Assembly: GCA_017883265.1 (NCBI GenBank)
Contig: JADGNX010000005.1
Location: 1-38,176 of the forward strand
DNA from: Thermoanaerobaculia bacterium
Lineage (GTDB): Bacteria > Acidobacteriota > Thermoanaerobaculia > Gp7-AA8
Reading direction: 5' to 3'
DNA length: 38,176 bases
Part shown: in pieces, positions 5,659-29,940 of the stretch
Layout of the letters: each line of letters begins with the position of its first letter
How positions within the stretch are numbered: position 1 is the first letter of the stretch
Program-made: the position numbers and the translations under genes
The notes under the pieces: model-generated
The model's database searches: none
What the model saw: the letters and a program-made list of their open reading frames with translations, nothing else
What the model was told of the DNA's origin: nothing

Positions 5659-5733
5659 TGGGGAGTCGCCAAGTGGTAAGGCATCGGTCTTTGGAGCCGA
5701 CATTCGATGGTTCGAATCCATCCTCCCCAGCCA
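5659..5733 (+). tRNA. tRNA-Gln(UUG), CCA encoded
   Basis: TGGGGAG/CTCCCCA acceptor, GCC/GGC D-stem, anticodon arm TCGGT-CTTTGGA-GCCGA (anticodon TTG), T-arm GGTTCGAATCC, discriminator G plus CCA. Confidence 0.95.
5719..5733 (+). repeat. 15-bp direct repeat, copy 1 (tRNA-Gln 3' end; att-like)
   Basis: CATCCTCCCCAGCCA, identical to 6513-6527. Confidence 0.85.
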
Positions 5734-5779
5734 ATTCTTAACAGAACCTCGGGCCGCGGTTTAGTATCATTTCAAAGCC

Positions 5780-5956
5780 ATGGCATCCGAAACGGCTGAC
5801 CCGGTCATCGAGCTCTACAAGGCGAGTATCGATCGCACGTTGCTGCGAGAGAATCTACGGCTGACGCCGGAGGAGCGAGTGCGCAACCTGCAGCGATTGC
5901 AGACGCTCGCTGAAGCGGCGCGGGAAGCGGGCGCCGCGCGGCGCCGCCAGCGATGA
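5780..5956 (+). CDS. 58-aa charged small protein, translationally coupled to downstream nucleotidyltransferase
   Basis: ATG 5780 to TGA 5954-5956: MASETADPVIELYKASIDRTLLRENLRLTPEERVRNLQRLQTLAEAAREAGAARRRQR. Below the 60-aa cutoff of the ORF track; its stop overlaps the next start as ATGA. Confidence 0.8.
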   Translation: MASETADPVIELYKASIDRTLLRENLRLTPEERVRNLQRLQTLAEAAREAGAARRRQR

Positions 5957-6432
5957 CTGATTTCGAGGAGCTTATTCACCGCCTGCACAGATCGGGGGTG
6001 GATTTTCTGATCGTTGGCGGCCTGGCGGCAACGATTCACGGATCCGCACGGTTGACCCAGGACCTCGACATCGTCTATTCGCGGTCTGCTGAGAACATTG
6101 GCCGGCTGGTCGATGCGCTTGCCCCTCTTGCGCCCTACTTGCGGGGTGCGCCTGAGGGGCTGCCATTCCGACTCGACGCCGAAACAGTGCGTAGCGGATT
6201 GAATTTCACGCTCCAGACACGCGTGGGAGCGCTCGACCTCCTCGGCGAGATCACCGGTGGGGGAAATTACGCAGCTCTTCATCGGCACACGATCACGGTC
6301 GTGCTCTTTGGCGTGCCGGTCGCGGCCCTTGATCTGGACACACTCATTCGCGTTAAGCGCGCGGCGGGACGACCGAAAGATCTCGAGGTAATCGCGGAGC
6401 TCGAAGCGTTGCGCGAGGAACAGCGGGGGTGA
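5953..6432 (+). CDS. MNT-fold (DNA polymerase beta-type) nucleotidyltransferase, AbiEii/DUF6036-like
   Basis: 159 aa; FLIVGGLAATIHGSARLTQDLDIVYS (GS...DLD) and a downstream Asp in GALDLLGEI; IRVKRAAGRPKDLEVIAELEAL typical of this family. Confidence 0.88.
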   Translation: MTDFEELIHRLHRSGVDFLIVGGLAATIHGSARLTQDLDIVYSRSAENIGRLVDALAPLAPYLRGAPEGLPFRLDAETVRSGLNFTLQTRVGALDLLGEITGGGNYAALHRHTITVVLFGVPVAALDLDTLIRVKRAAGRPKDLEVIAELEALREEQRG

Positions 6433-6512
6433 CGCCGGCTTTCAGTACCTGGAAGCGGAACAGGAAAGAGCCAGGGGGTTGGGGCCAGACCGACCGCGGT
6501 TCGAGAATCGTT

Positions 6513-6527
6513 CATCCTCCCCAGCCA
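6513..6527 (+). repeat. 15-bp direct repeat, copy 2 (displaced tRNA-Gln 3' end)
   Basis: CATCCTCCCCAGCCA, preceded by a perturbed T-arm-like GGTTCGAGAATCGTT (6499-6512). Confidence 0.8.
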
Positions 6528-7024
6528 CGGGTTGTCGAGCGCTAACTTTGGAATCACCGTTCAAAGTTGGCGATGAGAGGTCGGCCTGGCGATCACGGCA
6601 CGGTCAATCGGAAGCGCGTCCCAGCCGGCTGCGACGAGAGGCCCGTGCTCATGAAAACGGTTCCTCTCCCGGGTTCCTGTAGACATCCGCCCCACTTCCC
6701 GGTCGCTGCACTATGACCGGCCTCAGACCGTCGCCGGAAGCGGAACGCGCGGGGAATTTCTGGCCGAAGTCAAGGCCGGAAATGGCGGTCCCGCTTCCCT
6801 CTCAGAATTGGCAAACCTCGCCTTGCAGGGCGACTTATCATGAGGTACCTTACAAAGCGATAGCCCCTGAAATGATTGCCACTTGGCGGCGTCGAGCGGG
6901 TAGCGCGGGCTGATCCGAGGCAGGCGGGCTATGATGGCATGACGGAAGTCGCACACGAGAGTTTCCATGGCCAGGCAGCGCCGCCTTCCGGAAATATTGG
7001 ATGTCTCAGTTCGAGGAGGTTGCA

Positions 7025-7819
7025 ATGCGGGAGCTGACATCAGTCAGCCCGGATCAGATGCTGGGATGCGAGAGCTGCAACCGCGGCGTGCTCTGCTTTG
7101 ACACGTCGGCGATTGAGTGGGCGCGTCAGGGGCGAGACACGGCGGAGCCAAGGCCGACTCGCGTCGTTCTCTGCAGCGATCAACCGATCATGCGGAGCGC
7201 CCTGCACCTTTTGATCGACACGCGGAGCAACTACGAGGTGGCGATCGAGAGCGCCATCTGCCCCAACGCTCTCCGCCATCTCGACGGGACCGGAACCAAC
7301 GTGCTCCTCCTGGATTTCGATCTGAACGATCGATCCGAGGAGCGCCTCGCTACGCTGGAGTCGCTCCTGTCCGTAGCACCGAAAGTTCCGGTCCTCATCC
7401 TGACCACCGATCCGGATGCCGAGGCGTGTCATGTAGCGTTCCGCTTTGGCGTTCGTGGGATCGTGCTCAAGAGCAAGAGGCTCGACGACCTGTTCGGCGC
7501 CATCGACCGGATCCATCGTGGCGATACCTGGCTGGAAGGACCGGCGTTGCAGAAACTGCTCGACCAGGGGACGAAGAAAGCAAGCGCCGAAGACGTCCGG
7601 ATCGCTCAACTGACCAGGCGCGAGCGCGAGATCGTCAAAGTGGTGGCGGGCGGAAAGACCAATCGGCAGGTCAGCGAGGAGCTCTTCATTTCGGATGCGA
7701 CCGTTCGCCACCACCTCTGCACAATTTTCGACAAACTGGGCGTCTCGAGCCGCGGCGAGTTGATCGTCTACGCATACCGGAACGGCCTGGCCGACCGGAG
7801 ATCGCTCGAGGCGAACTGA
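7025..7819 (+). CDS. NarL/FixJ-family response regulator (receiver plus LuxR HTH)
   Basis: Receiver (LLLDFDL phosphoacceptor, LKSK lysine) and LuxR HTH LTRREREIVKVVAGGKTNRQVSEELFISDATVRHHLCTIFDKLGVSSRGEL; SD GAGGAGG supports ATG 7025. Confidence 0.93.
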   Translation: MRELTSVSPDQMLGCESCNRGVLCFDTSAIEWARQGRDTAEPRPTRVVLCSDQPIMRSALHLLIDTRSNYEVAIESAICPNALRHLDGTGTNVLLLDFDLNDRSEERLATLESLLSVAPKVPVLILTTDPDAEACHVAFRFGVRGIVLKSKRLDDLFGAIDRIHRGDTWLEGPALQKLLDQGTKKASAEDVRIAQLTRREREIVKVVAGGKTNRQVSEELFISDATVRHHLCTIFDKLGVSSRGELIVYAYRNGLADRRSLEAN

Positions 7820-7911
7820 AAGGACCTTCTGCACGACCGCTTGTCCAGGAAGCGGGCCAGTCGCCGCCGAGGCTCAGCCACCGTACGAGGGGCGGCGCCT
7901 TTCTGTCCGGT

Positions 7912-8286
7912 TCAGGGGGTCTTGGCCCCGGCGGCGCATTCGCCCACCAGCCGTACGAGCTCCTCGACCGCGAGCGGCTTGCGGAGAGCCGCTCGGACCG
8001 ATTCATGCTGCCCCAGCGTTTCCAGCGAAACAGCCGGCCCTCCGGTAGTCAGAAGGATGCACTTTTCGCCAGGCCGTTGCGCGCCGAGGTAGTCGATGAC
8101 CCATTGACCACCCAGCGTTGGCATCATGACGTCGAGCACGACGGCGTCGAAGTGCCGCGCCGACAGCATGGTGATCGCTTCGGTTCCATCGCCGGCCCCC
8201 GCCACTTCGTATCCGGAGAGCTCGAGCAGGTCGGCAAGCATGGTCCGCGTCGCAACGTCGTCGTCAACGATCAGTACGCTCGCCAT
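7912..8286 (-). CDS. Single-domain response regulator (receiver)
   Basis: MASVLIVDDDVATRTMLADLLELSGYEVAGAGDGTEAITMLSARHFDAVVLDVMMPTLGG...LRKPLAVEELVRLV; start trimmed from the longer ORF (8478) to ATG 8286. Confidence 0.9.
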   Translation of the reverse strand: MASVLIVDDDVATRTMLADLLELSGYEVAGAGDGTEAITMLSARHFDAVVLDVMMPTLGGQWVIDYLGAQRPGEKCILLTTGGPAVSLETLGQHESVRAALRKPLAVEELVRLVGECAAGAKTP

Positions 8287-8402
8287 GACGGCAAGTTTAC
8301 AACGCTCTTGGGCCAAGAGGGGAACCGAAGCTTTATTTACTTCGGTCTTTCCGAGCTCGCTGATCCGGCGCAGGGACACGGCGACGCGTTTTTTTGCTCT
8401 GA

Positions 8403-8816
8403 TCATCGTTGCCGGGACTTGGAATGCGTTGGAAGGGGGCGGTCGCGAAGTGGACGCATGAGGCTGCTCTCGCGCCAACGATCGATGGCCTGAACGAGCG
8501 ACTCGATCCTGACCGGCTTGGAGAGGGTCTCGATGATGAACGGATGCCGCGCTGTTGCGTTGGGGCGGGTCGTCAGGAGCATCACCCGCGGCTGGCCCCC
8601 GCCATCTGCAGCGAGCCGCTCCATGAGCGCTTCCGGGGCAATCCCTGGCAACTCGGCATCGAGGATGAGGAGATCGACTGGGGTATCGATGGCCCGCTCC
8701 GTGGCCTCGCTGTCCGAAGCCTCGATCGCATTCGTGCTCGCCAGAAAGCGGCAGTAGGTGAGCGCCTCGTGTCTCAGTGCATCATCGGCGACAGCTACGA
8801 CAACCCGCGGGTGCAT
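8403..8816 (-). CDS. Receiver-domain protein
   Basis: MHPRVVVAVADDALRHEALTYCRF...VDLLILDAELPG...PRVMLLTTRPNA...LSKPVRIESLVQAIDRW; start trimmed from 8849 to ATG 8816, which has a -10-like TACAAG 8 nt upstream. Confidence 0.75.
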   Translation of the reverse strand: MHPRVVVAVADDALRHEALTYCRFLASTNAIEASDSEATERAIDTPVDLLILDAELPGIAPEALMERLAADGGGQPRVMLLTTRPNATARHPFIIETLSKPVRIESLVQAIDRWRESSLMRPLRDRPLPTHSKSRQR

Positions 8817-8981
8817 CACATGAGCTTGTAGCAAATTCGGCTCCGGCACTCCGTGATCAATGACCGAAAAATCGCATCGGACTATTCCGATCGGCCGGAT
8901 CCTATCGCAGTCTCAGGCCGCGAAGGCTCGGAATATGCTTTATCATTATTCCATCTTTACGTCGATATCGCTATCCTCCAT

Positions 8982-9848
8982 TCAGTCTTCGCTCAGCGAA
9001 GCAGCGGCGCCGATTGTGTTGGCCGCGATCGCTGACACATCGCGAAGTGCAGCCAGTGCACGGTCGCGCTCCATGGAGTGACGAAATGCTCCAACGATGG
9101 TCGAGCCGGAGCCGCTCATCGAGGCCCAGACGGCACCTGCGTCATAGAGCCTCCTCTTCAGCTCCGCAAAGTGAGGATAGCGGGTGAAGATCGGCGCCTC
9201 GAAGTCGTTGGTCAGGGCCTGCGGGTGAGACAGAAAGTCGTGCTGGATCAAGGTGAGGAAGTGTTCCTTGCCGAGCGGAACAGAGGGAGATGTTCGGGTG
9301 GCGCCCAGCAGCGCGAACGCTTCAGCCGTGCTGACTGGCTCGGGTGGCACCAGCAGCAGTAGCGGGATGGCCGGACCGTCGGGCAATGACAGGAGCGACT
9401 CCCCTCTGCCCGTGGCATAAGCTTTTCCTCCGTGAAGAAAGAAAGGGACATCCGATCCGAGCTGAAGGGCCATCTCACTCAGCTCCTGGAGCGAGATATC
9501 GAGGTCGAACATCTGATTGAGCGCGCGGAGAGCGGCGGCCGCATTGGACGATCCCCCTCCCAATCCTCCGCCCGCCGGGATCCGTTTGTGGAGAGAGACG
9601 GCGACCTCGCCTGCTCCGTGCCTCTGCAGAAGGCGAACGGCCCGAATTGCCAGATTCGCTTCATCCCGTGGAATGGTCGGGTCGTCGCAACGCAGCGAAG
9701 TCGATTCGGCACGTTGAAACACCAGATCGTCGTGAAGCGAAACGGTCTGAAAGAGAGTCTCCAGATCGTGATAGCCGTCAGGACGACGACCGAGAACTCG
9801 TAGCGACCAGTTGATCTTGGCAAAAGCGGAAAGACTGAGTGAGTTCAT
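8982..9848 (-). CDS. ispE: 4-diphosphocytidyl-2-C-methyl-D-erythritol kinase
   Basis: 288 aa GHMP kinase: AFAKINWSLRVLGRRPDGYHDLETLFQTV, IPAGGGLGGGSSNAAAALRALN, LGSDVPFFL, MSGSGSTIVG. Confidence 0.96.
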   Translation of the reverse strand: MNSLSLSAFAKINWSLRVLGRRPDGYHDLETLFQTVSLHDDLVFQRAESTSLRCDDPTIPRDEANLAIRAVRLLQRHGAGEVAVSLHKRIPAGGGLGGGSSNAAAALRALNQMFDLDISLQELSEMALQLGSDVPFFLHGGKAYATGRGESLLSLPDGPAIPLLLLVPPEPVSTAEAFALLGATRTSPSVPLGKEHFLTLIQHDFLSHPQALTNDFEAPIFTRYPHFAELKRRLYDAGAVWASMSGSGSTIVGAFRHSMERDRALAALRDVSAIAANTIGAAASLSED

Positions 9849-12671: not shown

Positions 12672-12808
12672 TTTGTCATCCTAACACTGCAGAAAATGGT
12701 TGAACGGCGGCGCGAATTCCAGCCACGACGGCCATACCGCCCGCAGTCCCGTAGGACCGGATGAAGGAATGTGCTACAACGCGCTGGGGACTCCATGAGG
12801 AGCGTCGC

Positions 12809-14254
12809 TTGACCCTCGATCGCCTCGAGATCACACCGTTCGCTGTCATCGCAGGAGACCTGCTTCGCAGCCGCGATACCGGCTATCTGACCGTCATCCA
12901 TCAGCCCCTCCGCAAGGTGTTGTACTGGTCGCAGGGTGAGATCGTGATGGCCACATCGACTGCTCCCGAAGAATCGCTGGGCGATTTCCTGGTGCGACGT
13001 GACGTCATTACCATCGACCGGGCCTTCGAGATGATGAGCGACGATCCGACGAACGCCGTCGCTGCCTTTCACGAAGCGGGCCTGCTGGACCATTCCATGC
13101 GCCAGACGCTTCTGAGGGAGTGGCTGATCTCGCTGGTCATCCCGCTTTTCTCCGTGGATGAAGGGACGGCCGCATTCACGCACGAGCCAGCGATCGAGCC
13201 GGCCCGCCGCGTCTTCCTACAGTCGACGGCGGCAGTCATCCTCGACGGAATCCGATCGATCACCAACGGGCTGATCCTGCGGCGCTCGATCGGCGACCTG
13301 AAACGGGACATCGCCTTCTCCAACGAATCGCGTTTCAGCGTCGACAACGTACCGCTGAACGATGCCGAGCGCCGGATCGCCGCCAGCCTGGCCGATGAAC
13401 AGTCGATCGAGTCGTTCCTCAAGCATTTTCCGGCCGAGTCGGTAGCCGCAGCCAAAGTGGTCATCGGCATGATGGCTCTCGGTATTTTCCGGGTCATCGA
13501 CGTAAGGAGCCCTGCCGATCCCGGCGCCAGCATGGACGATATGCAGCGCGATCTCGAGTTGCTGGCGGCGATCGGAGCCGAAGACCAGCGGTCTCTGCGA
13601 GCGGTGCGCCTGGCCCGCCAGCTTTCGTCGATCGATCACTACCAGATCCTCGATGTGCCGCGCGCGGCGACGCGCGCCCAACTCCTGGCGCAGGCCGAGA
13701 CGATGAGAAAGCGTTATGACCCGGTGACGTATCCGCCGGTGGTGAGGGAGTCGATCCAGGCCATCCTGCGAAAGATCGATGAAGCGGCGAGCTTTCTAAC
13801 CGACGCCGGGCGCCGGCCGGGCTACGACAAGCTCCTCACTCAGCACGCCGCACGGAAAGGCGGTCAGGAGTGGATCCAGCAGCGGGTGAACCAGCGGACG
13901 ATCGCTCAGCAGAACTTCAACCGCGCGCGGGAGCTGTCGGTCACCGGCGATTATTACGGCGCCATCGTCCTGCTCAAGCAGGCCGTGAACTATGAGCCCG
14001 ACTATACCGAGGCGTGGTTTCTTCTCGGGAGCTGCCAGGAGCGCAATCCCAAATGGCGGCGCGAAGCGGCCGAGAGTTTCCAGCAGGTATTGTCCATCGA
14101 CCCCAACCACGTCGAGGCCCTCATCTCTCTCGGCGACCTCTACCGCTCGGAAGGTATGGGCAACAGGGCTCAGAGCTGCTACGAGGACGTCCTCAAGATC
14201 TCGCCGGGGAATCAGCAGGCAGCAAACCGTCTCGAGGCGTTGAAGAAGCGCTGA
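12809..14254 (+). CDS. DUF4388-like N-terminal, J-domain-like and TPR protein
   Basis: Probable TTG start at 12809 with SD GAGGAG (ORF extends to 12761); TGYLTVIHQPLRKVLYWSQGEIVMATS (DUF4388-like), DHYQILDVPRAATRAQLL... (J-like), C-terminal TPRs. Confidence 0.75.
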   Translation: MTLDRLEITPFAVIAGDLLRSRDTGYLTVIHQPLRKVLYWSQGEIVMATSTAPEESLGDFLVRRDVITIDRAFEMMSDDPTNAVAAFHEAGLLDHSMRQTLLREWLISLVIPLFSVDEGTAAFTHEPAIEPARRVFLQSTAAVILDGIRSITNGLILRRSIGDLKRDIAFSNESRFSVDNVPLNDAERRIAASLADEQSIESFLKHFPAESVAAAKVVIGMMALGIFRVIDVRSPADPGASMDDMQRDLELLAAIGAEDQRSLRAVRLARQLSSIDHYQILDVPRAATRAQLLAQAETMRKRYDPVTYPPVVRESIQAILRKIDEAASFLTDAGRRPGYDKLLTQHAARKGGQEWIQQRVNQRTIAQQNFNRARELSVTGDYYGAIVLLKQAVNYEPDYTEAWFLLGSCQERNPKWRREAAESFQQVLSIDPNHVEALISLGDLYRSEGMGNRAQSCYEDVLKISPGNQQAANRLEALKKR

Positions 14255-14292
14255 CAAAAAACGGCAATATCGCAGGCCGTCGAGCGGTTTTC

Positions 14293-15435
14293 ATGATCAT
14301 GCCTATTCAGCAGAAAAAGAGCGCGCTCAGTGAAGTGCTGAGCACGCGTACCACCGAGGGCGTGCTGTACGAGAAGCTCGAGGACAAGGCACTACGCTGC
14401 TTCGCCTGCGGCCATCGCTGCAAGATCCTGAGCGGCCTGGAGGGGATCTGCAAAGTCCGCTATAACGAAGACGGCATCCTCAGGGTGCCACGCGGATATG
14501 TCGGAGCCCTGCAGGTCGATCCGATCGAGAAGAAACCGTTCTTTCACGCGTACCCCGGTGCGCTGGCGCTGTCGTTTGGCATGCTCGGCTGCGACTATCA
14601 CTGCGGCTACTGTCAGAACTGGGTGACCTCGCAGGCTCTCCGCGATCCGGTCGCCGGTGCGCTTCCCGAAGACGTCGAGCCGGCCGATCTGGTGCGGGCA
14701 GCGAAACGGCTGGGCGCGACGGTCATCACGTCGACTTACAACGAGCCGCTGATCACCTCCGAGTGGGCTGTCGAGATCTTCCGGGAGGCGAAGAAGGCAG
14801 ACCTGGTCTGCTCGTACGTCTCCAACGGGAACGCCACTCCGGAGGCCCTCGAATTCATCGCTCCATGGGTCGATCTCTACAAAGTCGACCTCAAGGGCTT
14901 CACGCAGAAGGCCTACCGCGACCTCGGCGGCCAGCTGGAGCCGGTGCTCGAGACGATCCGCGGTCTCAAGCAGCGCGGCATCTGGCTGGAGATCGTCACG
15001 CTGATCGTCCCCGGCTTCAATGATTCGGACGAGGAGTTGACGAACATCGCCGAGTTCCTCTGCGGCGTCGATCCCGACATCCCCTGGCACATCACAGCGT
15101 TCCATCAGGACTACAAGATGACCAGGAACGCCAACACCGACGCAGGCACGCTGATGCGCGCCTACCAGATCGGCCGGCGGGCCGGACTGCGCTATATCTA
15201 TCCGGGAAATATCCCGGGCGGTTTCGGCGAGCTGGAAGGAACGCATTGTCCGAAATGCCAGGCGCTCGTCGTCGGGCGCACCGGCTTCCGAGTGACCTCG
15301 TACCACCTCATCGATGGACGCTGCCCCGACTGCTCGACTCTCATCCCCGGCGTGTGGGGCAGCGCCGGCGCCGGCGTAAACCGCAGCGCGGTGCCGCGAC
15401 CGGTGCACATTCAGACAGGAGCGGGAAGCCGATAA
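14293..15435 (+). CDS. amrS: AmmeMemoRadiSam system radical SAM enzyme
   Basis: 380 aa; CFACGHRCKILSGLEGIC, CDYHCGYCQNW (CxxxCxxC), YNEPLITSEWAVEIFREAKK, HITAFHQDYKM, C-terminal CPKC/CPDC pairs. Start trimmed from 14014 to ATG 14293. Confidence 0.93.
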   Translation: MIMPIQQKKSALSEVLSTRTTEGVLYEKLEDKALRCFACGHRCKILSGLEGICKVRYNEDGILRVPRGYVGALQVDPIEKKPFFHAYPGALALSFGMLGCDYHCGYCQNWVTSQALRDPVAGALPEDVEPADLVRAAKRLGATVITSTYNEPLITSEWAVEIFREAKKADLVCSYVSNGNATPEALEFIAPWVDLYKVDLKGFTQKAYRDLGGQLEPVLETIRGLKQRGIWLEIVTLIVPGFNDSDEELTNIAEFLCGVDPDIPWHITAFHQDYKMTRNANTDAGTLMRAYQIGRRAGLRYIYPGNIPGGFGELEGTHCPKCQALVVGRTGFRVTSYHLIDGRCPDCSTLIPGVWGSAGAGVNRSAVPRPVHIQTGAGSR

Positions 15436-15515
15436 GCGCCGGATCGATCGCTCATCGAGGGGATGAGACGATCCCGGCGAGAGTTGAGCGACGGGCCTAG
15501 GGGGCGTGGGGGGTT

Positions 15516-15678
15516 GGGGACGCAGCTTCTGTTGTCTGTTCGCGACCTTCGCGTCATTGAGTCATTGAGTCATTGAGTCATTGGGGACGCAGCTTCTGTC
15601 CTCTGCCGGGATGGGCGACCGAAGCTGCGTCCCCCGAGCTCGCGCCTTCTGAAAGGCGACGACTGAAGCTGCGTCCCC
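15516..15678. repeat. REP-like repeat array (two inverted, two direct copies of GAAGCTGCGTCCCC)
   Basis: GGGGACGCAGCTTC at 15516-15529 and 15583-15596; GAAGCTGCGTCCCC at 15621-15634 and 15665-15678. Confidence 0.9.
15553..15583 (+). repeat. 8-bp microsatellite (GTCATTGA)x3.9
   Basis: GTCATTGA at 15553, 15561, 15569, partial at 15577. Confidence 0.9.
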
Positions 15679-15739
15679 CGAGCTCGTACCGGCGGCGCGG
15701 GGCTACGACGGCCGGGCGTGTTGCTATAGTGCGAGCCAC

Positions 15740-16075
15740 GTGACCGAGTTCATCGAAATCGGATCGAGCAGCGACATCGCAGCCGGCCGGATGGCCAGCT
15801 ATCGTGTAAACGGAAGGGGTGTGGTGGTCTACCACACGGCCAGTGGCTTCCATGCCTCCGATGACCGCTGTCCGCATCGCGGAGGGCCGCTCGTGGAAGG
15901 CGACCTCATGGGTGAGGAGATCGTCTGCCCGTGGCATCTCTGGGGGTTCGACGTCCGCAGCGGAGTCTGCCCGGGGAACCCTGAAGTGCGTGTGACGACT
16001 CACGAGGTGCGGATCGAAAATGATCGCCTCCTGTTACGAGTGAATCCGGTAGAAGAGGCGTTGTCACAACCATGA
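15740..16075 (+). CDS. Rieske [2Fe-2S] ferredoxin
   Basis: 111 aa; CPHRGGPL...CPWHLWGFD (CxH...CxxH); GTG start. Confidence 0.92.
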   Translation: MTEFIEIGSSSDIAAGRMASYRVNGRGVVVYHTASGFHASDDRCPHRGGPLVEGDLMGEEIVCPWHLWGFDVRSGVCPGNPEVRVTTHEVRIENDRLLLRVNPVEEALSQP

Positions 16076-16707
16076 ATCCGAAGCCATTGCGCCATGTCGA
16101 TCTTTACAATGATGCCGGACGGCTGGAGGCTCTCTATCGCGAGCTTCAGGATCCGGTGGGGGTGGCCGTGGTCTGTCATCCCCTGCCGAGCGGCGGTGGA
16201 ACGATGCACACCAAAGTCGTCTTCCGCGCGGCGCGCGGGCTGGAAGCGGCTAACTTCGCCACGATTCGCTTCAATTTCCGTGGGGTGGGGGCGAGCGGAG
16301 GGAAGTGGGACGGCGGCGAAGGAGAGCAGAACGATGTCCTGGCCGCAATCCAGTGGATCACCAGGAAGCATCCCGGTGTGAAACTCCTGGTCGGCGGATT
16401 CTCGTTCGGTGCCTGGGTGGCGAGCCGTGTGGCGTGCGAACTGCCGGAAGTGGACGGCATCTTTCTGATCGGCACGCCGGTCGATAAGTACGACTTCAGC
16501 TATCTGCGCGACTGCCACAAGCCGAAGCTGTTCCTGCACGGCACTCAGGACGAATATGGAAATGTCGAGAAGCTGGAGAAGCTGGTCGGCGCGCTGAGCA
16601 ACTCCGAAAGCATGATCCTCACCGGCGCCGACCATTTCTTTTCCAAACAGCTCGACGCCGTCGAAGAGACACTGCGGAACTGGGCCATCGAAATGGCCGA
16701 ACAGTAG
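16072..16707 (+). CDS. Alpha/beta hydrolase
   Basis: 211 aa; CHPLPSGGGTMHTKVVFRAARGLEAANFATIRFNFRGVGAS, GGFSFGAWVA nucleophile elbow, terminal GADHFF; ATGA overlap with the Rieske gene. Confidence 0.9.
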   Translation: MNPKPLRHVDLYNDAGRLEALYRELQDPVGVAVVCHPLPSGGGTMHTKVVFRAARGLEAANFATIRFNFRGVGASGGKWDGGEGEQNDVLAAIQWITRKHPGVKLLVGGFSFGAWVASRVACELPEVDGIFLIGTPVDKYDFSYLRDCHKPKLFLHGTQDEYGNVEKLEKLVGALSNSESMILTGADHFFSKQLDAVEETLRNWAIEMAEQ

Positions 16708-16725
16708 AGGGAAAACCAGAAAATA

Positions 16726-16785
16726 GAAACCAGAAACCAGAAACCAGAAAATAGAAACTAGCAAGCAGGTCTGGTTTCTGGTTTC
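16726..16785. repeat. Inverted repeat of CCAGAAA heptamers between convergent genes (bidirectional terminator-like)
   Basis: GAAACCAGAAACCAGA (16726-16741) and TCTGGTTTCTGGTTTC (16770-16785): perfect 16-bp stem. Confidence 0.8.
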
Positions 16786-17877
16786 TCAATGGGCCTGTAT
16801 CGTCGACGGCAGAAAGTAGAGGGCCACGGCGATGATGGCGTAGACCGCCAGCAACTGGATCCCTTCGTACCAGTTCGATTCTCCATCCATCACCAGATAA
16901 GAAAAGATCGCCACGCCCAGACCGACGGCCAGAATCTCGAACGGCGAAAAGATCAGATCGAGGGGGTGGCCGAGCGGATACGAGATGAAGACAAGGACCG
17001 GCGTTACGAACAGGGCGATCTGGACGCTCGACTGCATGGCGATGTTGAGCGCCGTATCCATCTGGTTACGCATGGCCAGCACCACGGATGTCGAGTGCTC
17101 GGCGGCGTTGCCGACGATCGCCAGGACTACGAATCCGAGGAAGATCTCGTTCATGCCCCAACGGTGTCCAGCTTCCCGGACCGCTCCCACCAGCCCTTCG
17201 GCCACCACGGCCATCAGAGCGCTCGACACGAGGAGCAGGGCCAGCGCCTTCCTGCGGCTCCAGAGACGGCCAGGCTTCTCACCTTCCCTGGATGCAGGAG
17301 CCCCGAGCAGACCCTTGTGCGTCTTGAAGGTGAAGAGAAGACCGAGTCCGTAGCAGATGATGAGGATGATGGAGGTGCCGATGGAGACCTGGTGGATCAG
17401 CGATCCGTGGTGAGTGCGGAGGGCGGTGCGGAAGAAGAGCGCCGGCACCAGAAACGAGCTGACCGCAAGGATGAGCTGCCCGGCTTGCGACTCGGCGGCC
17501 AGTGCATTGAACTGCTGCTTATCGCGACCCAACCCTCCCAGCAGCATCGATAGTCCAGCCACGAAGAGGAGATTCCCGACGATCGAGCCGGCGAACGACG
17601 CCCGGACGACATCCGGCAGGCCGGCCCGGATGGCGAAGATGGCGATGATCATCTCGGCCAGGTTGCCGAAGGTGGCGTTGAAGAGCGCGCCGTAAGTCGG
17701 TCCCATCCGGTGAGCGAGCTGCTCGGTGCTCGCTCCGATCCAGGCCGCGAGCGGCAGGACGGCCAGGCAGGAGACGATGAAGAGCCAGACCCGGTCGCCG
17801 TGTGAGAGCTCGAGGTACAGCGACAGAGGAATGGTCAGGGCGAGTACGAGGTGCGCGACGCGCTTGACCCTTTCCAT
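16786..17877 (-). CDS. cax: Calcium/proton antiporter (CaCA family)
   Basis: 363 aa polytopic; GALFNATFGNLAEMIIAIFAIRAG and GFVVLAIVGNAAEHSTSVVLAMRNQMDTALNIAMQSSVQIALFVTPVLV are the duplicated CaCA alpha-repeats. Confidence 0.95.
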   Translation of the reverse strand: MERVKRVAHLVLALTIPLSLYLELSHGDRVWLFIVSCLAVLPLAAWIGASTEQLAHRMGPTYGALFNATFGNLAEMIIAIFAIRAGLPDVVRASFAGSIVGNLLFVAGLSMLLGGLGRDKQQFNALAAESQAGQLILAVSSFLVPALFFRTALRTHHGSLIHQVSIGTSIILIICYGLGLLFTFKTHKGLLGAPASREGEKPGRLWSRRKALALLLVSSALMAVVAEGLVGAVREAGHRWGMNEIFLGFVVLAIVGNAAEHSTSVVLAMRNQMDTALNIAMQSSVQIALFVTPVLVFISYPLGHPLDLIFSPFEILAVGLGVAIFSYLVMDGESNWYEGIQLLAVYAIIAVALYFLPSTIQAH

Positions 17878-17906
17878 GGCGCGGCAGTCTGTGGTGCGCG
17901 GGGAGG

Positions 17907-17935
17907 GGTGTCAAGAGTCCTCGACCCTTGACACC
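17907..17935. promoter_or_regulatory. 29-bp palindrome supplying TTGACA to both divergent promoters
   Basis: GGTGTCAAG-a-GTC-ctc-GAC-c-CTTGACACC between start codons 17877(-) and 17966(+). Confidence 0.65.
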
Positions 17936-17965
17936 TGCAGCGACCCGAGATGAGACTCTCGTCCC

Positions 17966-18751
17966 ATGACGACCATCGTGACTGCCATCGAGAACGGCGT
18001 GGCTACGATCACGCTGAACCGGCCGGAAAAGCTGAATTCATTCGGCGGATCGATGCGAGAGGAGCTGATGGCCGCCTTGCAGAGGATTGCCGCCGACGAA
18101 AATGTGCGCGTGGCGATCGTCACCGGGGCCGGACGCGCTTTCTCGGCCGGGGGCGACGTCGAGCGGATGCGAAGCCTGCAGAAGGAGGGAGACGAGGCGG
18201 CGTTCGGCGAGTTGCTCGCTGCAGGACGCAAGGTGGTGACGCTCATCCGGCACATGCCGCAGTTCGTCATCGCCTCGATCAACGGTGTGGCCGCCGGCGC
18301 CGGTTGCAATCTCGCTCTGGCCTGCGATTACCGGATGGCCGCCGATACGGCGAAGCTCGGTGAGACATTCGTTCGCATCGGCCTGCATCCCGATTGGGGC
18401 GGTACCTTCTTCCTTCCGCGTCTCGTCGGAACGAGCCGGGCCATGGAGATCATGATGACCGGACGGATGGTCGACGCGGATGAAGCGCTGCGCATCGGAA
18501 TGGTCGACCGGGTGGTCACCGCCGGCGAGCTCTCGGCCGCGACCACCGCGCTGGCTCGTTCAGTCGCCGATGGACCGCCGCTCCCTCTCTCGGCGCTCAA
18601 GCGCACCCTCTACGCCTCGGCAGAAAACGACCTGGCGTCGCAGATCGATCTGGAAAGCGACATCCAGCTCCAGGCCTTCCGCTCACGCGACGCGGCGGAA
18701 GGCATGAACGCGTTTTTCGAGAAGAGGCCGCCGAAGTTCGGCTCTCGATAG
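17966..18751 (+). CDS. Enoyl-CoA hydratase/isomerase family protein
   Basis: 261 aa; ITLNRPEKLNSFG, TGAGRAFSAGGDVERM, SINGVAAGAGCNLALACDYRMA, GLHPDWGGTFFLPRLVG. Confidence 0.95.
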   Translation: MTTIVTAIENGVATITLNRPEKLNSFGGSMREELMAALQRIAADENVRVAIVTGAGRAFSAGGDVERMRSLQKEGDEAAFGELLAAGRKVVTLIRHMPQFVIASINGVAAGAGCNLALACDYRMAADTAKLGETFVRIGLHPDWGGTFFLPRLVGTSRAMEIMMTGRMVDADEALRIGMVDRVVTAGELSAATTALARSVADGPPLPLSALKRTLYASAENDLASQIDLESDIQLQAFRSRDAAEGMNAFFEKRPPKFGSR

Positions 18752-18812
18752 AGGTCCCGATGCGGGGGCCGGCATGGCCACTCCCCCAATGAGTCAGTTA
18801 GGTTCTTGCGGC

Positions 18813-18830
18813 CGAAGTCCTCAGACTTCG
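18813..18830. terminator. Hairpin CGAAGTC-CTCA-GACTTCG between convergent genes
   Basis: Perfect 7-bp stem, 4-nt loop, between 18751 (+ stop) and 18841 (- stop). Confidence 0.5.
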
Positions 18831-18840
18831 TCTGCAGAAT

Positions 18841-20547
18841 TCAGACGCTCTTGACGATGAGGAGAGTCTGATCGTCCTTCTGCGGCGCTTCGCCGACGAA
18901 TGCGTCGACCTCCCGGGTGATTGCCTCCGCCAGCTGGCGCGCCGTGGCTGACAGGTTCGAAGTCAGGATCGCTTCGAGCCGGGGATTCTCGAACTCCTCG
19001 CCGGCCAGGTTCTCCGCTTCGGTGATCCCATCGCTGTAGACGACGAAGGTCGAGCCCGTCGGGAAGGGGCGAGTCTGCGTGCTGTAACGGGAATTGGGCA
19101 TGATGCCGATCGGCAGCCCGTGCGAGTTGACCTGCTCCATCCGATCGCCTATGAGGATGTAGGCCGGATTGTGGCCGGCGTTGACGTAGCGGATCGTCTC
19201 ATCCTCCCGATCGAACGAGGCCAGCACCATGGTGATGAACTTGTTCTCGGCCGACCAGCGATGAATGTGCCGGTTCAGCTCCGTGGCAATCTCGGCCAGC
19301 TCACGACCCTCGGCAAAGAGGAGTTGCAGGGCGGCATGGAGGGCTGACACGAGCAGAGCCGCAGGCATCGACTTGCCCGCCACGTCGGCGACGCAAACGA
19401 TGAGAGAACCGTCGCGCTCGACAAATCCGTGGTAGTCGCCGCCGACCTGCCGCGCCGGACGGGCCACCGCGGCCAGATCGAAGCCGGCAACAGCAGGGGT
19501 CTTCTTGGGAAGGATGTCGCGCTGGATCGTCGCGGCCAGCTCCAGATCGCGCTCCATGGCCTGCTTCTCGAGGGCCTGACGGTGAAGTCGCGCGTTCTCG
19601 AGAGCAATGGCCACCTGGCTGCCGAAGAGCGAGAGGAGCCGGAGGTCGTTCTCCTCGAAGGCGCCGAGGCCGCCGTCGCGCGTTTCACGATCGGCGGCGG
19701 CGATGACTCCGATGACGTCGTTGTTGCCTCGAATAGGAAGCGCGATGAGGCTCCCACAGCCGGGGAAGATGCAGTCCGTATCGGAGTCGAAGGTCACAGG
19801 ACTGCTGTCGTTGAGAAGGCGACTGGCGAGGTCTGCATCAAGCTCGCGATCGAGGAACTCCGGCCGAACCTCGCCGAACGACCGATAGAGGATGAAGCGC
19901 GATCCCTCTCGAAGATAGAGCGCAGCACGGCGGGCATTGATGAGGGAGACGGTTCGTACAAGGATCTCCTCGGCCAACTCGTCCATGTTGAGGGTCGAGG
20001 CGATGGAGAGACCGATGTCGTACAGAGACTCGAGCTCCCAGAGCCGGTACTTGAGCTGAAAGTCCCCCTCGCGCATCTCGTGCGTGAGGCGCTGATTGGT
20101 CAGGACCGTGCTGGCGTAGGCGGCACCGAGCCGGATCAGTTCGAGCTCTCCTTCATCGCGACCGCCATTCCCTGCCGAATCGGTGAGGGCCACGAAGCCG
20201 AGCTGCTCCCGGGTGTTGCGAAGCGGGACGAGGATGCTCGGAGACGGGTGAAGAAGTGAAACGAAGGCCAGCTCGGCCACCTCGGGAAACGACGAGACCT
20301 GAAGAAGGCTCCCGGGACCGTCGGGGTCGATGAGCTCGGGCGCTTCGCAGGCACTCCTGGCAGCGAGGCGGAAGCCGCTATCGCGTTCGCGGAAGTAGAC
20401 GACGCCTGCGCTCGAGTCTGTGTGCCTCAGAAATGCATCGAGAATCAGAGTGCCGGACGCGGCGCTGGACTCGGATCGAGCGGGAGCCTTCTCGAGTTGC
20501 TGGAGATCGCGAAGGAACGACGAGAATTGCTGGATCGAGGAGGCCAT
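18841..20547 (-). CDS. GAF domain-containing PP2C-type (SpoIIE/RsbU-like) serine phosphatase
   Basis: 568 aa; GAF-like segments, then LELAATIQRDILPKKTPAVAGFDLAAVARPARQVGGDYHGFVERDGSLIVCVADVAGKSMPAALLVSALHAAL...YVNAGHNPAYIL...YSDGITEAEN. Confidence 0.93.
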   Translation of the reverse strand: MASSIQQFSSFLRDLQQLEKAPARSESSAASGTLILDAFLRHTDSSAGVVYFRERDSGFRLAARSACEAPELIDPDGPGSLLQVSSFPEVAELAFVSLLHPSPSILVPLRNTREQLGFVALTDSAGNGGRDEGELELIRLGAAYASTVLTNQRLTHEMREGDFQLKYRLWELESLYDIGLSIASTLNMDELAEEILVRTVSLINARRAALYLREGSRFILYRSFGEVRPEFLDRELDADLASRLLNDSSPVTFDSDTDCIFPGCGSLIALPIRGNNDVIGVIAAADRETRDGGLGAFEENDLRLLSLFGSQVAIALENARLHRQALEKQAMERDLELAATIQRDILPKKTPAVAGFDLAAVARPARQVGGDYHGFVERDGSLIVCVADVAGKSMPAALLVSALHAALQLLFAEGRELAEIATELNRHIHRWSAENKFITMVLASFDREDETIRYVNAGHNPAYILIGDRMEQVNSHGLPIGIMPNSRYSTQTRPFPTGSTFVVYSDGITEAENLAGEEFENPRLEAILTSNLSATARQLAEAITREVDAFVGEAPQKDDQTLLIVKSV

Positions 20548-20711
20548 GGTCTCTACGAGGGTATTAGTCTATCAGCAGCAAAACCCTGGAGCGGGCCGCG
20601 ACTGGATGGTGTGCGAGAACAGCTCAGTGGCCTGAAGGTTCTGTCAACCTGGGCAGCCCCGCGGGTCCAGGGGCGAGGTGAACGCCCTTCCCCTGAAGCG
20701 ATGGGAAGAGG

Positions 20712-21062
20712 CTACAGAGTCAGCTCGCGCACGGCCGACTCTTCGTCCGGAAAAATCGCGGCGTACTGGGCCAGTCCCATGATCTGGAATGTCTTCTGAA
20801 TGACCGGCGTGAGGCAGCAGAAGGAGAGTCGCCCCCCCTTCTCCATCATTTTCTCGATGATCTCGATGAGGATGCTGATACCGATGGAGTTGACGATTTT
20901 GGTCTCGCGCAGGTTGAGCAGGAGCGACCGTACTCCCCCGTCCATGAGCTCGTAGGCTCGAGCGGCGATTTCCTCGCCTCCTACGTTGTTGATATACCCC
21001 TTCGTGTAGAGAATCGCACCGTTGGGCTTGCGCTCTACAGCGACCTTCAGCTCGTCCGTCAT
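20712..21062 (-). CDS. STAS-domain anti-sigma factor antagonist (RsbV-like)
   Basis: 116 aa; LLLNLRETKIVNSIGISILIEIIEKMMEKGGRLSFCCLTPVIQKTFQIMGL. Confidence 0.9.
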   Translation of the reverse strand: MTDELKVAVERKPNGAILYTKGYINNVGGEEIAARAYELMDGGVRSLLLNLRETKIVNSIGISILIEIIEKMMEKGGRLSFCCLTPVIQKTFQIMGLAQYAAIFPDEESAVRELTL

Positions 21063-21502
21063 ATCGCCTTCTCGCCGTACTTGACCATGTGAATGGTAGT
21101 CCCGTCCGCACTGGATGAGATGTCTACCTCATCCATGTGTGCTTCGATGATTTGCAGACCCCAGCCCCGCTTGTGCGAGACGCCTTCGTGATGGCGGCGC
21201 CTCGATCTGGCCTGGTCGAGGTCGAACCCGCGCCCATGATCGGTGATCCAGACGTCGATGCGCGGCGCTCCGTCCGCTCCGGAACTGCCACGGAATCTTA
21301 GATACATGCGCCCATCGGCGCAACCGGAATGCTCGCGGGCGTTGATGCAGGCCTCGATGATGGCGTGAGTCATCTCATCGATCTTTTCGGAGCTCAGGCC
21401 CAGCTCCCTCGCGAGGTTGCCCGCGGCACGCGCAGCGGCGATCTCGATGTCGGGGACCATTGGAAGCGTGAGGTCCATCTGCCGCTCGGCGGTCGTGGTC
21501 AT
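21059..21502 (-). CDS. Serine kinase/anti-sigma factor (RsbW-like HATPase_c_2)
   Basis: 147 aa; EMTHAIIEACINAREHSG, VWITDHGRGFDLDQ, RGWGLQIIEAHMDEVDISSSADGTTIHMVKY; 4-nt overlap with the STAS gene. Confidence 0.92.
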   Translation of the reverse strand: MTTTAERQMDLTLPMVPDIEIAAARAAGNLARELGLSSEKIDEMTHAIIEACINAREHSGCADGRMYLRFRGSSGADGAPRIDVWITDHGRGFDLDQARSRRRHHEGVSHKRGWGLQIIEAHMDEVDISSSADGTTIHMVKYGEKAI

Positions 21503-21521
21503 GAGGCGGTAGTCCTGATCC

Positions 21522-21683
21522 TCAGAACGCCAGAAAGATGGCTGCGACGGACTTGATCCACTCCGGGATCCCGAAATGCTGTTCGAAGGCCAGAAGAACG
21601 AATGAGTTCAGAGCGAGCATCGCCGGCATGGCGTAGGAAAACTGAATCGCTGTCTCGATCTTGGCTTTGACGTAGTGGCTCAT
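21522..21683 (-). CDS. 53-aa putative small membrane protein upstream of the RsbW-like gene
   Basis: ATG 21683 to TGA 21522: MSHYVKAKIETAIQFSYAMPAMLALNSFVLLAFEQHFGIPEWIKSVAAIFLAF; purine/G-rich AAAAAGGGGG upstream; below the ORF track cutoff. Confidence 0.6.
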   Translation of the reverse strand: MSHYVKAKIETAIQFSYAMPAMLALNSFVLLAFEQHFGIPEWIKSVAAIFLAF

Positions 21684-21890
21684 GGCGCCCCCTTTTTGAA
21701 GTCGGGAGGGCTAAGAGCAACGCGACTGCCACGGGCCGCATCGGGAACATTTCAGTCGTAAATTGCTGATTCAAAGGCATTTATAGAATCGCACCGCATC
21801 ATCTCAATGGAAACGACACCGGGGAGAAACGCCACACTTTCGATCAACAGAACCAGAATACAATCGTAAGTTACGTCTTGTCAATGACTT

Positions 21891-23420
21891 CTAATGAATG
21901 TTCCATTTATCCACAATAGGGTTATTTTGCCCCAATCGGTCGCGGTGCCTATAGAGAGTCTTCCGGTCGATCCCTAGAATTCGAGACGCCTTGGTCATAT
22001 TTCCTCCGGTGTGAGCCAGCACCCGGGCGATATAACGGCGCTCGAGATCATCGAGCGTTGGCAGATCGGCTCCCAATTCCCCCTCCGGCCCGATACGCGC
22101 CTCCTCGGGCAGGAGCAGATCTCCCGGATCGATGACCGGATCGGTGGTCAGGGCCAGCGCTCCCTCGATGAGATTCTCCAGCTCGCGGACGTTGCCCGGA
22201 AACTGATAGTGCATCAGCCGCTGCAGCGCCTCCTGCGTGATCCGCACATCGTGCAATCCTTCGCGCTTCCCGTACTTGTCGAGGAAGAAGCGGACCAGCT
22301 TCGGGATGTCGTCGCGCCGGTCGCGCAGCGGCGGAAGGACGATCTCCACGACCTTCAGACGGTAGTAGAGATCCTGGCGAAACTCGCCCACTTCGATCAT
22401 CTGTTCGAGATCGCGGTGCGTGGCTGCAAGAATCCGCACGTCCACAGCGATGCGCCGGCGCCCCCCCAGCTTTTCGATCTCACGCTCCTGCAGGACCCGG
22501 AGCAGTTTGGCCTGCAGGGCCGGCGCGATGTCGCCAACCTCGTCGAGGAAGACGGTGCCGCCGCGCGCCATCTCGAACTTTCCCGGCCGCGCTTCCACGC
22601 CGGTGGCCACGCCGCGCTCGATACCGAACAGCTCGGACTCGAGGAGCGTCTCCGGCAAAGCGGCGCAGTTGATGGCCACGAACGGCCCGTCGCGGCGCGG
22701 CGAATTGCCATGGATGAGACGAGCCACCATCTCCTTCCCCGTTCCCGATTCGCCGCGGATGAGCACGTTGGCGTGGCTGTCCGCCACCCGGGCCACCAGA
22801 TCGATCACCCGCTGCATCTTCGACGAGTCGCCGATCATGAGACGATCGTTGTACTCGCGCAGCATCCGCTGCTTCAGCGAGCGGTTCTCATCCTCGAGCG
22901 ATTCCCGGACCATGTTGAGACGATGGTAGTTGCGAGCGTTGTCCACCGCCGCTCCCCCGATCGCCGCGAGCGAGCCGAGGAAGCGAAGATCGTCCTCGAC
23001 GAAGCTTCCACTCCCGGATCCCCGCTCTTCCTTGCCTCCCACTCCGATCGCCCCGACCACGGAGTCTCCGGACATCATGGGCGCCAGCAGAAGATCGCCG
23101 GCAGTGACTCCGAGAAACTTCGCCATCGGCGTCGAAAGGGGCACCCGGGTGCTCAGCAACCGGCGCACCGGCTCTTCGGCCAGAATCGACTGGGAGATGG
23201 ACGGCGGCTCGAACCCGAACGCGAAGAGATGCTGCACGTTCATCGTCTCGTCGATCGAGAAGACAAAGCCGACGGCCGCATCGAGTACCGAGATAGCCCT
23301 CTGCATCAACTCCTCGAGCAGCTCTCCCTCGGGGCGCAGAGTGTTCAGCGCACGGCCGACATCGTAGAGCGCTTCGAGCTGCAGCAGTTTACGTCGAAGC
23401 TCGAATTGAGTCTGCGGCAT
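21891..23420 (-). CDS. Sigma54-type AAA+ regulator with GAF domain and Fis HTH
   Basis: GESGTGKEMVARLIHG (Walker A), GGTVFLDEVGDI (Walker B), Fis-like C-terminus NMTKASRILGIDRKTLYRHRDRL. Start trimmed from 23633 to ATG 23420 (MPQTQFELRRKL); the upstream part of the ORF translates a repeat hairpin. Confidence 0.92.
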   Translation of the reverse strand: MPQTQFELRRKLLQLEALYDVGRALNTLRPEGELLEELMQRAISVLDAAVGFVFSIDETMNVQHLFAFGFEPPSISQSILAEEPVRRLLSTRVPLSTPMAKFLGVTAGDLLLAPMMSGDSVVGAIGVGGKEERGSGSGSFVEDDLRFLGSLAAIGGAAVDNARNYHRLNMVRESLEDENRSLKQRMLREYNDRLMIGDSSKMQRVIDLVARVADSHANVLIRGESGTGKEMVARLIHGNSPRRDGPFVAINCAALPETLLESELFGIERGVATGVEARPGKFEMARGGTVFLDEVGDIAPALQAKLLRVLQEREIEKLGGRRRIAVDVRILAATHRDLEQMIEVGEFRQDLYYRLKVVEIVLPPLRDRRDDIPKLVRFFLDKYGKREGLHDVRITQEALQRLMHYQFPGNVRELENLIEGALALTTDPVIDPGDLLLPEEARIGPEGELGADLPTLDDLERRYIARVLAHTGGNMTKASRILGIDRKTLYRHRDRLGQNNPIVDKWNIH

Positions 23421-23471
23421 GTCTAACGAGGCTCCACCACAGACCAACGAGATGTAGACCGCTCCGGTGAA

Positions 23472-23546
23472 TTCGAAGCCAGAAACCAGAAGCCAGAAAC
23501 CAGAACGGCCTTCTCTGGTTTCTGGTTTCTGGTTTCTGGTTTCGAA
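23472..23546. repeat. Large hairpin of CCAGAAA heptamers
   Basis: Left arm 23472-23505, loop CGGCCTT (23506-23512), right arm 23513-23546; 34-nt arms with 3 differences, two of which would be G.U pairs when the + strand is transcribed. Confidence 0.88.
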
Positions 23547-23556
23547 TCTCTGGTCA

Positions 23557-23913
23557 TCAGTCCTTCCCCAACGCACGACGGCACTGGCCGAGGAGAAAAT
23601 CGCAGTTCCATTCACGGTAGAAACCGGGGGCAATCGAATAGATTCTGGTGAGCAGGGACGAGGCCTCCACCCACCGGCGCATCTTCATGTCCGTTCGCGC
23701 CAGAAAATACATCGACTTGATCGTCTCCGGCGAGGGCTCTCCTCGCGCGACGATGGCCTCGAACCGCTGCGACGCCGTGTTGTAGTCGTGCTGTGTGAAG
23801 CTGCAGAGAGCCTGGGTGTAGGCGTCGCCGCTGGAACAGGACGCCGCCGCTCGCGCCGGATGCGTTACTGTGAGCAGCACGAGGATGCCGGCGACGGTCA
23901 AAGAATGCTTCAC
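23557..23913 (-). CDS. Small secreted TPR-like/hypothetical protein
   Basis: 118 aa, GTG start, signal peptide MKHSLTVAGILVLLTVTHPARAAA; helical repeat character. Confidence 0.65.
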   Translation of the reverse strand: MKHSLTVAGILVLLTVTHPARAAASCSSGDAYTQALCSFTQHDYNTASQRFEAIVARGEPSPETIKSMYFLARTDMKMRRWVEASSLLTRIYSIAPGFYREWNCDFLLGQCRRALGKD

Positions 23914-23930
23914 CGCCTCAGAATAGAACG

Positions 23931-24788
23931 ATGCGCCTTGGAATCATAGGAGGTGGACGCGCCGCCTGGGCCTTCGGCTCCGCCTGGCGGGCAGCCGGCC
24001 TTCCACTCTCCGGGATTGCGCTGCGGGCCGGCTCTGCCAGCCCTGCGGCCCGTCTTCTATCGCTCGATGTGATGACCGTGGCGGAGGTCGCCAGTACTTC
24101 CGATGTCGTGCTCGTTGCAGTCAGCGACCGGGCCATCCCGGCGATCGCCGCTGAAGTCTCAGGCGCAGCGGCGGCGGTATTCCACTGCAGCGGATCACTC
24201 CCCGGCGCGGTCTTCGGCGATCGTTCGAATGCTTTCTCGCTCCATCCCTTCCGGGCCCTACCCGCCGTCGGCGAGCCGGTGACGCTCCGCGACACGCTCA
24301 TGGTCTATGAGGGACCGGACGACGCCGTCCACGATGCCCTCCGCGTCGTCGAGATCTGTGGCGGGATATTCGGGCGGATACCGGCGGAGCAGAAAGCGCG
24401 CTACCACGCCGCCGCCGTTTTCGCCGCCAACCATGTAGCCGCCATGCTTCAGATGTCCGAAGAGATTCTCCAGAGCGTCGCTCTTGACATCCCGGCTGCA
24501 GACACACCCACCCTGACCATCCTCCGTCGGGCCATCGTCGATCTGGCCGCCTCGGCTTCCTCAAACTGGCTGCATCAGCGAGGAGCAGCCTCCTTTACCG
24601 GTCCCGCCGCGCGGGGCGAGCGCCAGGTCGTGGCCGGACACCTGGCTGCCCTGGCCGGCGTTCCTCATCTCCAGCGGATCTATCGCCAACTGGCGGCGGA
24701 AATCCTTGGAAGGACCGCCGGAGCCGGAGCCCTGGATGGCGACGATGCTCTCGAAAAGTGGCTTTCCGACAATAGTTTCCTTCCTTGA
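23931..24788 (+). CDS. DUF2520/Rossmann-like oxidoreductase
   Basis: 285 aa; MRLGIIGGGRAAWAFGSAWRAAGLPLSG, VLVAVSDRAIPAIA, VFHCSGSLPG, SLHPFRALP. Confidence 0.85.
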   Translation: MRLGIIGGGRAAWAFGSAWRAAGLPLSGIALRAGSASPAARLLSLDVMTVAEVASTSDVVLVAVSDRAIPAIAAEVSGAAAAVFHCSGSLPGAVFGDRSNAFSLHPFRALPAVGEPVTLRDTLMVYEGPDDAVHDALRVVEICGGIFGRIPAEQKARYHAAAVFAANHVAAMLQMSEEILQSVALDIPAADTPTLTILRRAIVDLAASASSNWLHQRGAASFTGPAARGERQVVAGHLAALAGVPHLQRIYRQLAAEILGRTAGAGALDGDDALEKWLSDNSFLP

Positions 24789-24852
24789 CCCCTTCGAAAA
24801 CCGGGTGCTACGATCGCTGTCCGCTCCGGCGGAATCCGCGGGGCTCGATCCG

Positions 24853-27650: not shown

Positions 27651-27655
27651 CGGAG

Positions 27656-29050: not shown

Positions 29051-29089
29051 GCCCGGCATTGTAGAGGGAAGTACTCGTAGAATGACGAC

Positions 29090-29845
29090 GTGCCGAGGGA
29101 TGCGCGGGGCGTCGATCTCGAATTTGCGCTGCCACCACGCCGCGTGATCTCGCTCGTGCCTTCGTTGACCGAGACGCTGTTCGATCTCGGCGCCGGAGGA
29201 GCGGTCGTCGGCATCACCGACTACTGCATCTTTCCACCGGACTTAACGGCCACCCGCGTCGGCGGCACGAAGAATCCCGATCTCGCTGCCATCCGCGCGC
29301 TGAAGCCGGACCTCGTCCATCTCAACGTCGAAGAGAATCTCAAACGCCATGCCGATGAGATCGCGGCGTTCGCGCCGATCTTCGTAACTGAGCCGAAGAG
29401 CGTGGCCGACGTCGACGCGCTATTCGGCACGCTCGGCATGATTCACGGCGTGCCCGATGCCGCCCGACGGCTGCAGACGAAGCTGAAAGAGGCCGAAGCG
29501 GGATTTGCCGGACGACAGCCGTTCACCTTCGCCTGTCCCATCTGGAAGGATCCCTGGATGTGGTGCGGCGGCGACACCTATGTCTCGTCGCTCATCGAGG
29601 CTGCCGGCGGCGTCAACCTCCTGGCGGAGGCATCGCGATATCCGAAGCGCGAGCTAATCGACGTGATCAGCCTGAGCCCTGAAGTCATCTTCCTGCCGGA
29701 CGAGCCGTATCTCTTCACGCAAGCCGATGCCGCAGCGCTGCGCGATCAGTCAACCGCTCGCGTCGTGGGACCCTTTCCCGGACACCTCGTCACCTGGCAC
29801 GGCTCCCGGACGATCGCCGGGCTCGAGTTTCTGGCGAGCGCTTGA
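29090..29845 (+). CDS. Helical backbone metal receptor / BtuF-like substrate-binding protein
   Basis: 251 aa; RVISLVPSLTETLFDLGAGGAVVGITDYCIFP, RVGGTKNPDLAAIRALKPDLVHLN; no signal peptide visible; GTG start. Confidence 0.85.
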   Translation: MPRDARGVDLEFALPPRRVISLVPSLTETLFDLGAGGAVVGITDYCIFPPDLTATRVGGTKNPDLAAIRALKPDLVHLNVEENLKRHADEIAAFAPIFVTEPKSVADVDALFGTLGMIHGVPDAARRLQTKLKEAEAGFAGRQPFTFACPIWKDPWMWCGGDTYVSSLIEAAGGVNLLAEASRYPKRELIDVISLSPEVIFLPDEPYLFTQADAAALRDQSTARVVGPFPGHLVTWHGSRTIAGLEFLASA

Positions 29846-29940
29846 CAACGTGCGACGATATCGACAGCGGTGGAGCGGAGACATCTCCGTAGCCCAGTGC
29901 GGCCGAGACGAGGCCGATCGATCTGAAGGTATGGAGTGGG

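Follow-up and report, generated by a model that had tools for sequence, protein, structure and literature searches.

The stretch of DNA analysed here (the window, 38,176 nt of contig JADGNX010000005.1 from a Thermoanaerobaculia bacterium) contains a single tRNA gene, tRNA-Gln(UUG), whose last 15 nt, CATCCTCCCCAGCCA, recur exactly on the same strand downstream of the gene (Table 1). The repeat stops precisely at the CCA. The tRNA gene and its displaced end are separated by 779 bp (794 bp from repeat to repeat), and the original prediction of a recurring tRNA 3′ end at this position was borne out by ARAGORN, by Rfam, and by scans of the window and the genome. Immediately before the displaced copy, the look of a T-arm persists (GGTTCGA..ATC), although in the garbled form that had been described from the sequence, with 30 nt from GGTTCGA to CCA at the displaced end versus 25 nt in tRNA-Gln. 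Directly past the displaced end lies an inverted repeat, AACTTTG...CAAAGTT, at 6548-6573.

Table 1. Features of the tRNA-Gln locus (positions in the window).
Feature	Position	Strand	Basis
tRNA-Gln(UUG), intact, CCA encoded	5659..5733	+	ARAGORN; Rfam RF00005, 63.9 bits
15-nt repeat, first copy (last 4 nt of T-stem 3′ strand, acceptor 3′ strand, discriminator and CCA)	5719..5733	+	
σ70-like promoter match TTAACA-18-TAGTAT, just before the cassette	5738..5767	+	Consensus match only
58-aa helical small protein, candidate MenA1-like antitoxin	5780..5956	+	Pairing with nucleotidyltransferase homologues in many genomes; AlphaFold2
159-aa nucleotidyltransferase, MenT1/AbiEii/DUF6036-like, candidate toxin	5953..6432	+	Sub-threshold family matches; fold match
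T-arm-like stretch in altered form, GGTTCGAGAATCGTT, exceeding its counterpart in the tRNA by 5 nt	6498..6512	+	
Displaced exact copy of tRNA-Gln 3′ end, candidate old attR	6513..6527	+	

Even with up to two mismatches allowed, the window holds only these two copies of CATCCTCCCCAGCCA (shuffles lead to an expectation of 0.13), and no further copy occurs in the whole 3.93-Mb genome at one mismatch or fewer. A wide occurrence of the 15-mer away from tRNA genes, which the original prediction had named as grounds for its own abandonment, was not seen in this genome. A first-order Markov model gives an expectation of about 2e-6 copies within 1.5 kb downstream, and of 9e-5 over all 39 tRNA genes; with this expectation and a genome-unique sequence, a chance origin of the repeat was rejected. 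In the downstream DNA covered for 29 further tRNA genes of this genome, no displaced 15-nt 3′ end was seen; the longest 3′-end repeat, of 13 nt, lay inside a tRNA cluster. A foreign base composition was likewise rejected for the interval between the tRNA gene and the displaced end, since no G+C shift occurs across it.

The interval encodes the two genes anticipated from the sequence and no others, and these overlap at an ATGA. The promoter-like site ahead of them matches 9 of 12 consensus positions, compared with a mean of 0.3 for shuffles. The 58-aa protein is modelled by AlphaFold2 as all-helical (pLDDT 84.9), and it has no match in Pfam, PADLOC, NCBIfam or PHROGs and no sequence match to MenA1. 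Pfam matches of the nucleotidyltransferase to DUF2204, DUF6036 and AbiEii are all sub-threshold, the last reaching 14.4 bits against a cut-off of 22.5, and an AbiEii match is also returned by PADLOC (E 3e-4). The protein shares the GG...G...TxDxD motif and similar size of DUF6036 and AbiEii nucleotidyltransferases but falls below the curated family score. Its AlphaFold2 model (pLDDT 92.5) matches the folds of TM1012 and of the Mycobacterium tuberculosis toxin MenT1, with a TM-score of 0.68 against the toxin chain of 8an5, and a profile built from 15 homologues ranks MenT1 first in the PDB, albeit weakly (E 0.03). Residues T35, D37, K135 and D143 are invariant in those 15 homologues and align, in a correspondence partly read by eye, with T39, D41, K137 and D152 of MenT1, all four of which have been mutated in earlier work (PMC10435456). 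The predicted fold thus carries the catalytic T/S, D, K and D residues of MenAT- and AbiE-type enzymes, and a homologue of the 58-aa protein precedes most of the closest nucleotidyltransferase homologues.

The nearest characterized counterpart would be MenAT1 (Rv0078B-Rv0078A of M. tuberculosis), in which a small helical protein is also encoded directly upstream of a nucleotidyltransferase; MenA1 is 68 aa long, and the predicted helical partner here 58 aa. In contrast to these likenesses, the sequence identity of the nucleotidyltransferases is only about 20%, the small proteins have no sequence match, and the present pair is known from its sequence and predicted structure. Taken together, these features point to a MenAT1-like, toxin-antitoxin-like cassette, and the two products may act as toxin and antitoxin. 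The family of MenT1 has been reported to extend tRNA acceptor ends (PMC10435456). Considering this resemblance, and the CCA at which the displaced copy ends, it is conceivable that the copy is selected in its own right, for example as a tRNA-like RNA that affects how the transcript is processed, or to bait the nucleotidyltransferase. This seems the least probable of the explanations considered, however, as folding of the stretch gives no stability beyond that of shuffles (z 0.4), other cassettes have no tRNA gene nearby, and one relative, G003, possesses a displaced copy without any cassette.

An integrase would normally be sought within such an arrangement, and the original prediction that none lies inside the interval proved correct. 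None lies elsewhere in the window either, and the contig has no PF00589 match, the interval consisting of two small ORFs. The whole genome encodes three PF00589 proteins. Two of them, XerD and XerC, score above their curated cut-offs; the third is Xer-like, scores below these, and has a pattern of Pfam matches that recurs across the family. Neither PF00239 (serine recombinase) matches nor a phage-type integrase were found in the genome, and none of the integrase places listed for the 18 family genomes falls on a tRNA-Gln contig (16 genomes compared).

The cassette itself is found well beyond this locus. Homologues of the nucleotidyltransferase with 60-66% identity are present in genomes from other families of the class but missing from several genomes of the same family, and such a patchy distribution would fit horizontal spread. 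Five plasmid relatives were found, all distant, one of them annotated DUF6036; searches of phages and viral contigs yielded no relatives. The original prediction had proposed searching for the cargo beside other tRNA genes, and this search, which covered about 1.5 kb of flank at 29 cassette or nucleotidyltransferase loci and wider stretches around ten, returned no tRNA gene, so an attraction of the cassette to tRNA genes was rejected. Because it occurs in different families of the class with no tRNA close by, the cassette does not appear to be a tRNA-targeting hitchhiker. The related suggestion, that of a minimal satellite mobilised in trans at tRNA 3′ ends, could draw on the small size of the unit, its own promoter-like site and its patchy spread, but it too is very unlikely: the genome offers only XerC, XerD and the Xer-like protein and no phage-type integrase, there are no phage or viral relatives, flanking repeats common to the relatives are absent save for an unrelated one in G063, and recurrence with the same att or a helper integrase was not seen. 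Both of these versions of the original prediction are accordingly set aside.

The exception in G063 involves a cassette homologue (L085 9621-10548) flanked by a 69-nt direct repeat, 86% identical, which duplicates the start of a 1004-aa NTPase-like gene (a domain reading made by eye); the cassette sits between the first 69-nt copy and the intact gene. The repeat scores at about the 99th percentile of random sites drawn from the same loci, about 1% of which do as well, and because nine close loci were tested at about 1% each (roughly a one-in-ten event), it is not significant. Direct repeats as a general flank of the cassettes were rejected, with G063 alone standing out among the nine. One could imagine a cassette that, with no recombinase of its own, spreads by inserting at the ends of host genes and leaves behind a displaced copy of the gene end (at this locus the 3′ end of the tRNA, in G063 the opening 69 nt of the 1004-aa gene); with G063 as the sole locus pointing that way, this is very unlikely.

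Comparison with relatives, all from other genera of the same family, class and phylum, separates the displaced end from the cassette. The left-part type preceding the tRNA-Gln 3′ end at the displaced copy is GGTTCGANNATCGT, and scans for the altered T-arm joined to a tRNA end, covering 149 class and 396 phylum genomes (partly overlapping), recovered the pattern only in the genome of the window and in G003, a member of another genus of the family. A widespread mobile att consisting of the 15-nt repeat was therefore rejected. A further scan with the tRNA-Gln allele gave three records only, all already among the f1 relatives. Three other candidates were dismissed: a second tRNA half in G048, which comes after a stretch of N and does not differ from the first half, was treated as a scaffolding artefact, and the stand-alone 3′ ends in G010 and G031 belong to other complete tRNAs (Asn and Gln-CUG). 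An ispE tree was too poorly resolved to place the genome of the window.

In G003, this pattern of altered T-arm and tRNA end occurs at C14:5815-5844, 94 bp past tRNA-Gln, with the same net 5-nt change in T-arm length as in the window. As this relative carries the end without the cassette, the two are separable and need not have arrived together. The copies in G003 and the window have a common left part, GGTTCGA-NN-ATCGT, while the right part of each consists of the acceptor-side letters of its own host's tRNA. The left-part likeness is short, about 12 of 14 nt, of which 7 are expected from the tRNA, and is not significant in a plain alignment control (p ~0.1); the remaining flanks cannot be aligned. 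Behind the G003 copy, the native trailer appears for a second time; over 55 nt, this second tRNA end plus trailer matches the tRNA end and trailer of G013 at 86%. In G012, which belongs to the same genus as G003, the displaced end is absent; a gene stands after tRNA-Gln (L072 +1 to +1031) where G003 (L071) has the displaced end, and the interval from the tRNA to the next gene is about 0.86 kb longer in G012 than in G003.

From these observations, the most likely reading is that the second 15-mer is an attachment-site scar, that is, the tRNA-Gln 3′ end displaced by a past site-specific integration whose element has since been lost, with the MenAT1-like cassette now filling the gap; a probability of roughly one half is assigned to it. 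Crossover would have occurred at the T-stem/acceptor junction of tRNA-Gln. The tRNA gene would have stayed intact because the incoming element supplied a new 3′ end, and the original end would have been shifted downstream behind element-derived sequence, visible as the altered T-arm. After loss of the element and its integrase, the self-sufficient cassette, with its own promoter-like site, would be what fills the interval today, whether as cargo that outlasted the element or as something that entered the scar afterwards. Of the original prediction, then, the decayed remnant or old att still leads. The geometry argues for it (a 3′ fragment downstream of an intact tRNA, in the same orientation and ending at CCA), as do the genome-unique exact 3′ end, the combination of a shared left part with a host-specific right part, as an attR made of element and host would show, the roughly 0.86-kb difference between G003 and its copy-free genus-mate, and the patchy nucleotidyltransferase across families of the class. 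Weighing on the other side are the lack of an integrase in the interval, the window and the tRNA-Gln contigs of the family, an interval of only 0.78 kb, an identity block of only 15 nt, and the short, non-significant left-part likeness.

A close and serious rival, though a somewhat less probable one, is that ordinary recombination or replication slippage duplicated tRNA-Gln partially or in tandem, that the second copy then decayed, and that the cassette inserted independently between the copies. The second native trailer copy in G003 fits a duplication equally well, and the unit of tRNA end plus trailer there resembles a local one. Moreover, a weak resemblance to a tRNA can be followed from the repeat in the direction of the anticodon arm (best anchored score 15, reached by 5 of 200 controls), and the DNA to the right of tRNA-Gln is poorly conserved across the family. 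Uniform decay, however, would not usually leave identity perfect over 15 nt, ending exactly at CCA, with the rest garbled, nor does a duplication readily accommodate an altered T-arm length common to G003 and the window despite unalignable flanks, or the absence of the copy from G003's genus-mate. On balance, the displaced end is probably the scar of an old insertion, and the cassette an ordinary mobile toxin-antitoxin-like pair, common elsewhere, that came as cargo or later.

Islander has described the class of tRNA islands with crossover at the T-stem/acceptor junction, and its filters call for an integrase gene between or overlapping the ends and a length of 2-200 kb (PMC4383910). The present unit resembles such islands in its intact tRNA, its same-strand downstream 3′ fragment and a putative crossover near that junction, but differs in having neither integrase nor other mobility genes, a repeat-to-repeat length of 794 bp and an identity of 15 nt. 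Its 3′ fragment and orientation agree with Islander's filters but the integrase and length do not, so the unit should not be classed among the tRNA islands. One study regards tRNA fragments left by integration as pervasive among prokaryotes and describes an island at tRNA-Gln-TTG that has 44-bp repeats (PMC9897764). If the scar reading is right, the locus would provide a small example, from a little-studied soil group (Acidobacteriota, Gp7), of an island decayed to a tRNA fragment while a toxin-antitoxin-like pair stayed in place. The cassette is in addition a candidate MenAT1-like system that lies below curated family cut-offs though it recurs across the class.

The wider window also differs in arrangement from other genomes. 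tRNA-Gln follows closely after ispE in several other families of the class. In the window (5659-9848), ispE is on the opposite strand, 3.2 kb from tRNA-Gln, and in the family relatives the two genes are unlinked within the stretches read, so a rearrangement breakpoint probably falls between 5733 and 8982. Two paralogues of the LuxR-type response regulator at 7001-7819 are encoded in the same genome, in C77 (78%) and in C283 (69%), and G013 carries a relative at 78%, a value higher than the 49-61% that ispE shows between genera. Farther along, the genes at 12761-14254 and 30922-31974, which lie close together in most of the family genomes read, are separated by a segment of about 16.5 kb (14254-30708) that encodes a Na/Ca exchanger, an enoyl-CoA hydratase, a SpoIIE-GAF protein, a sigma-54 activator, a LysM/SLT protein, an FAD oxidase and a periplasmic binding protein.
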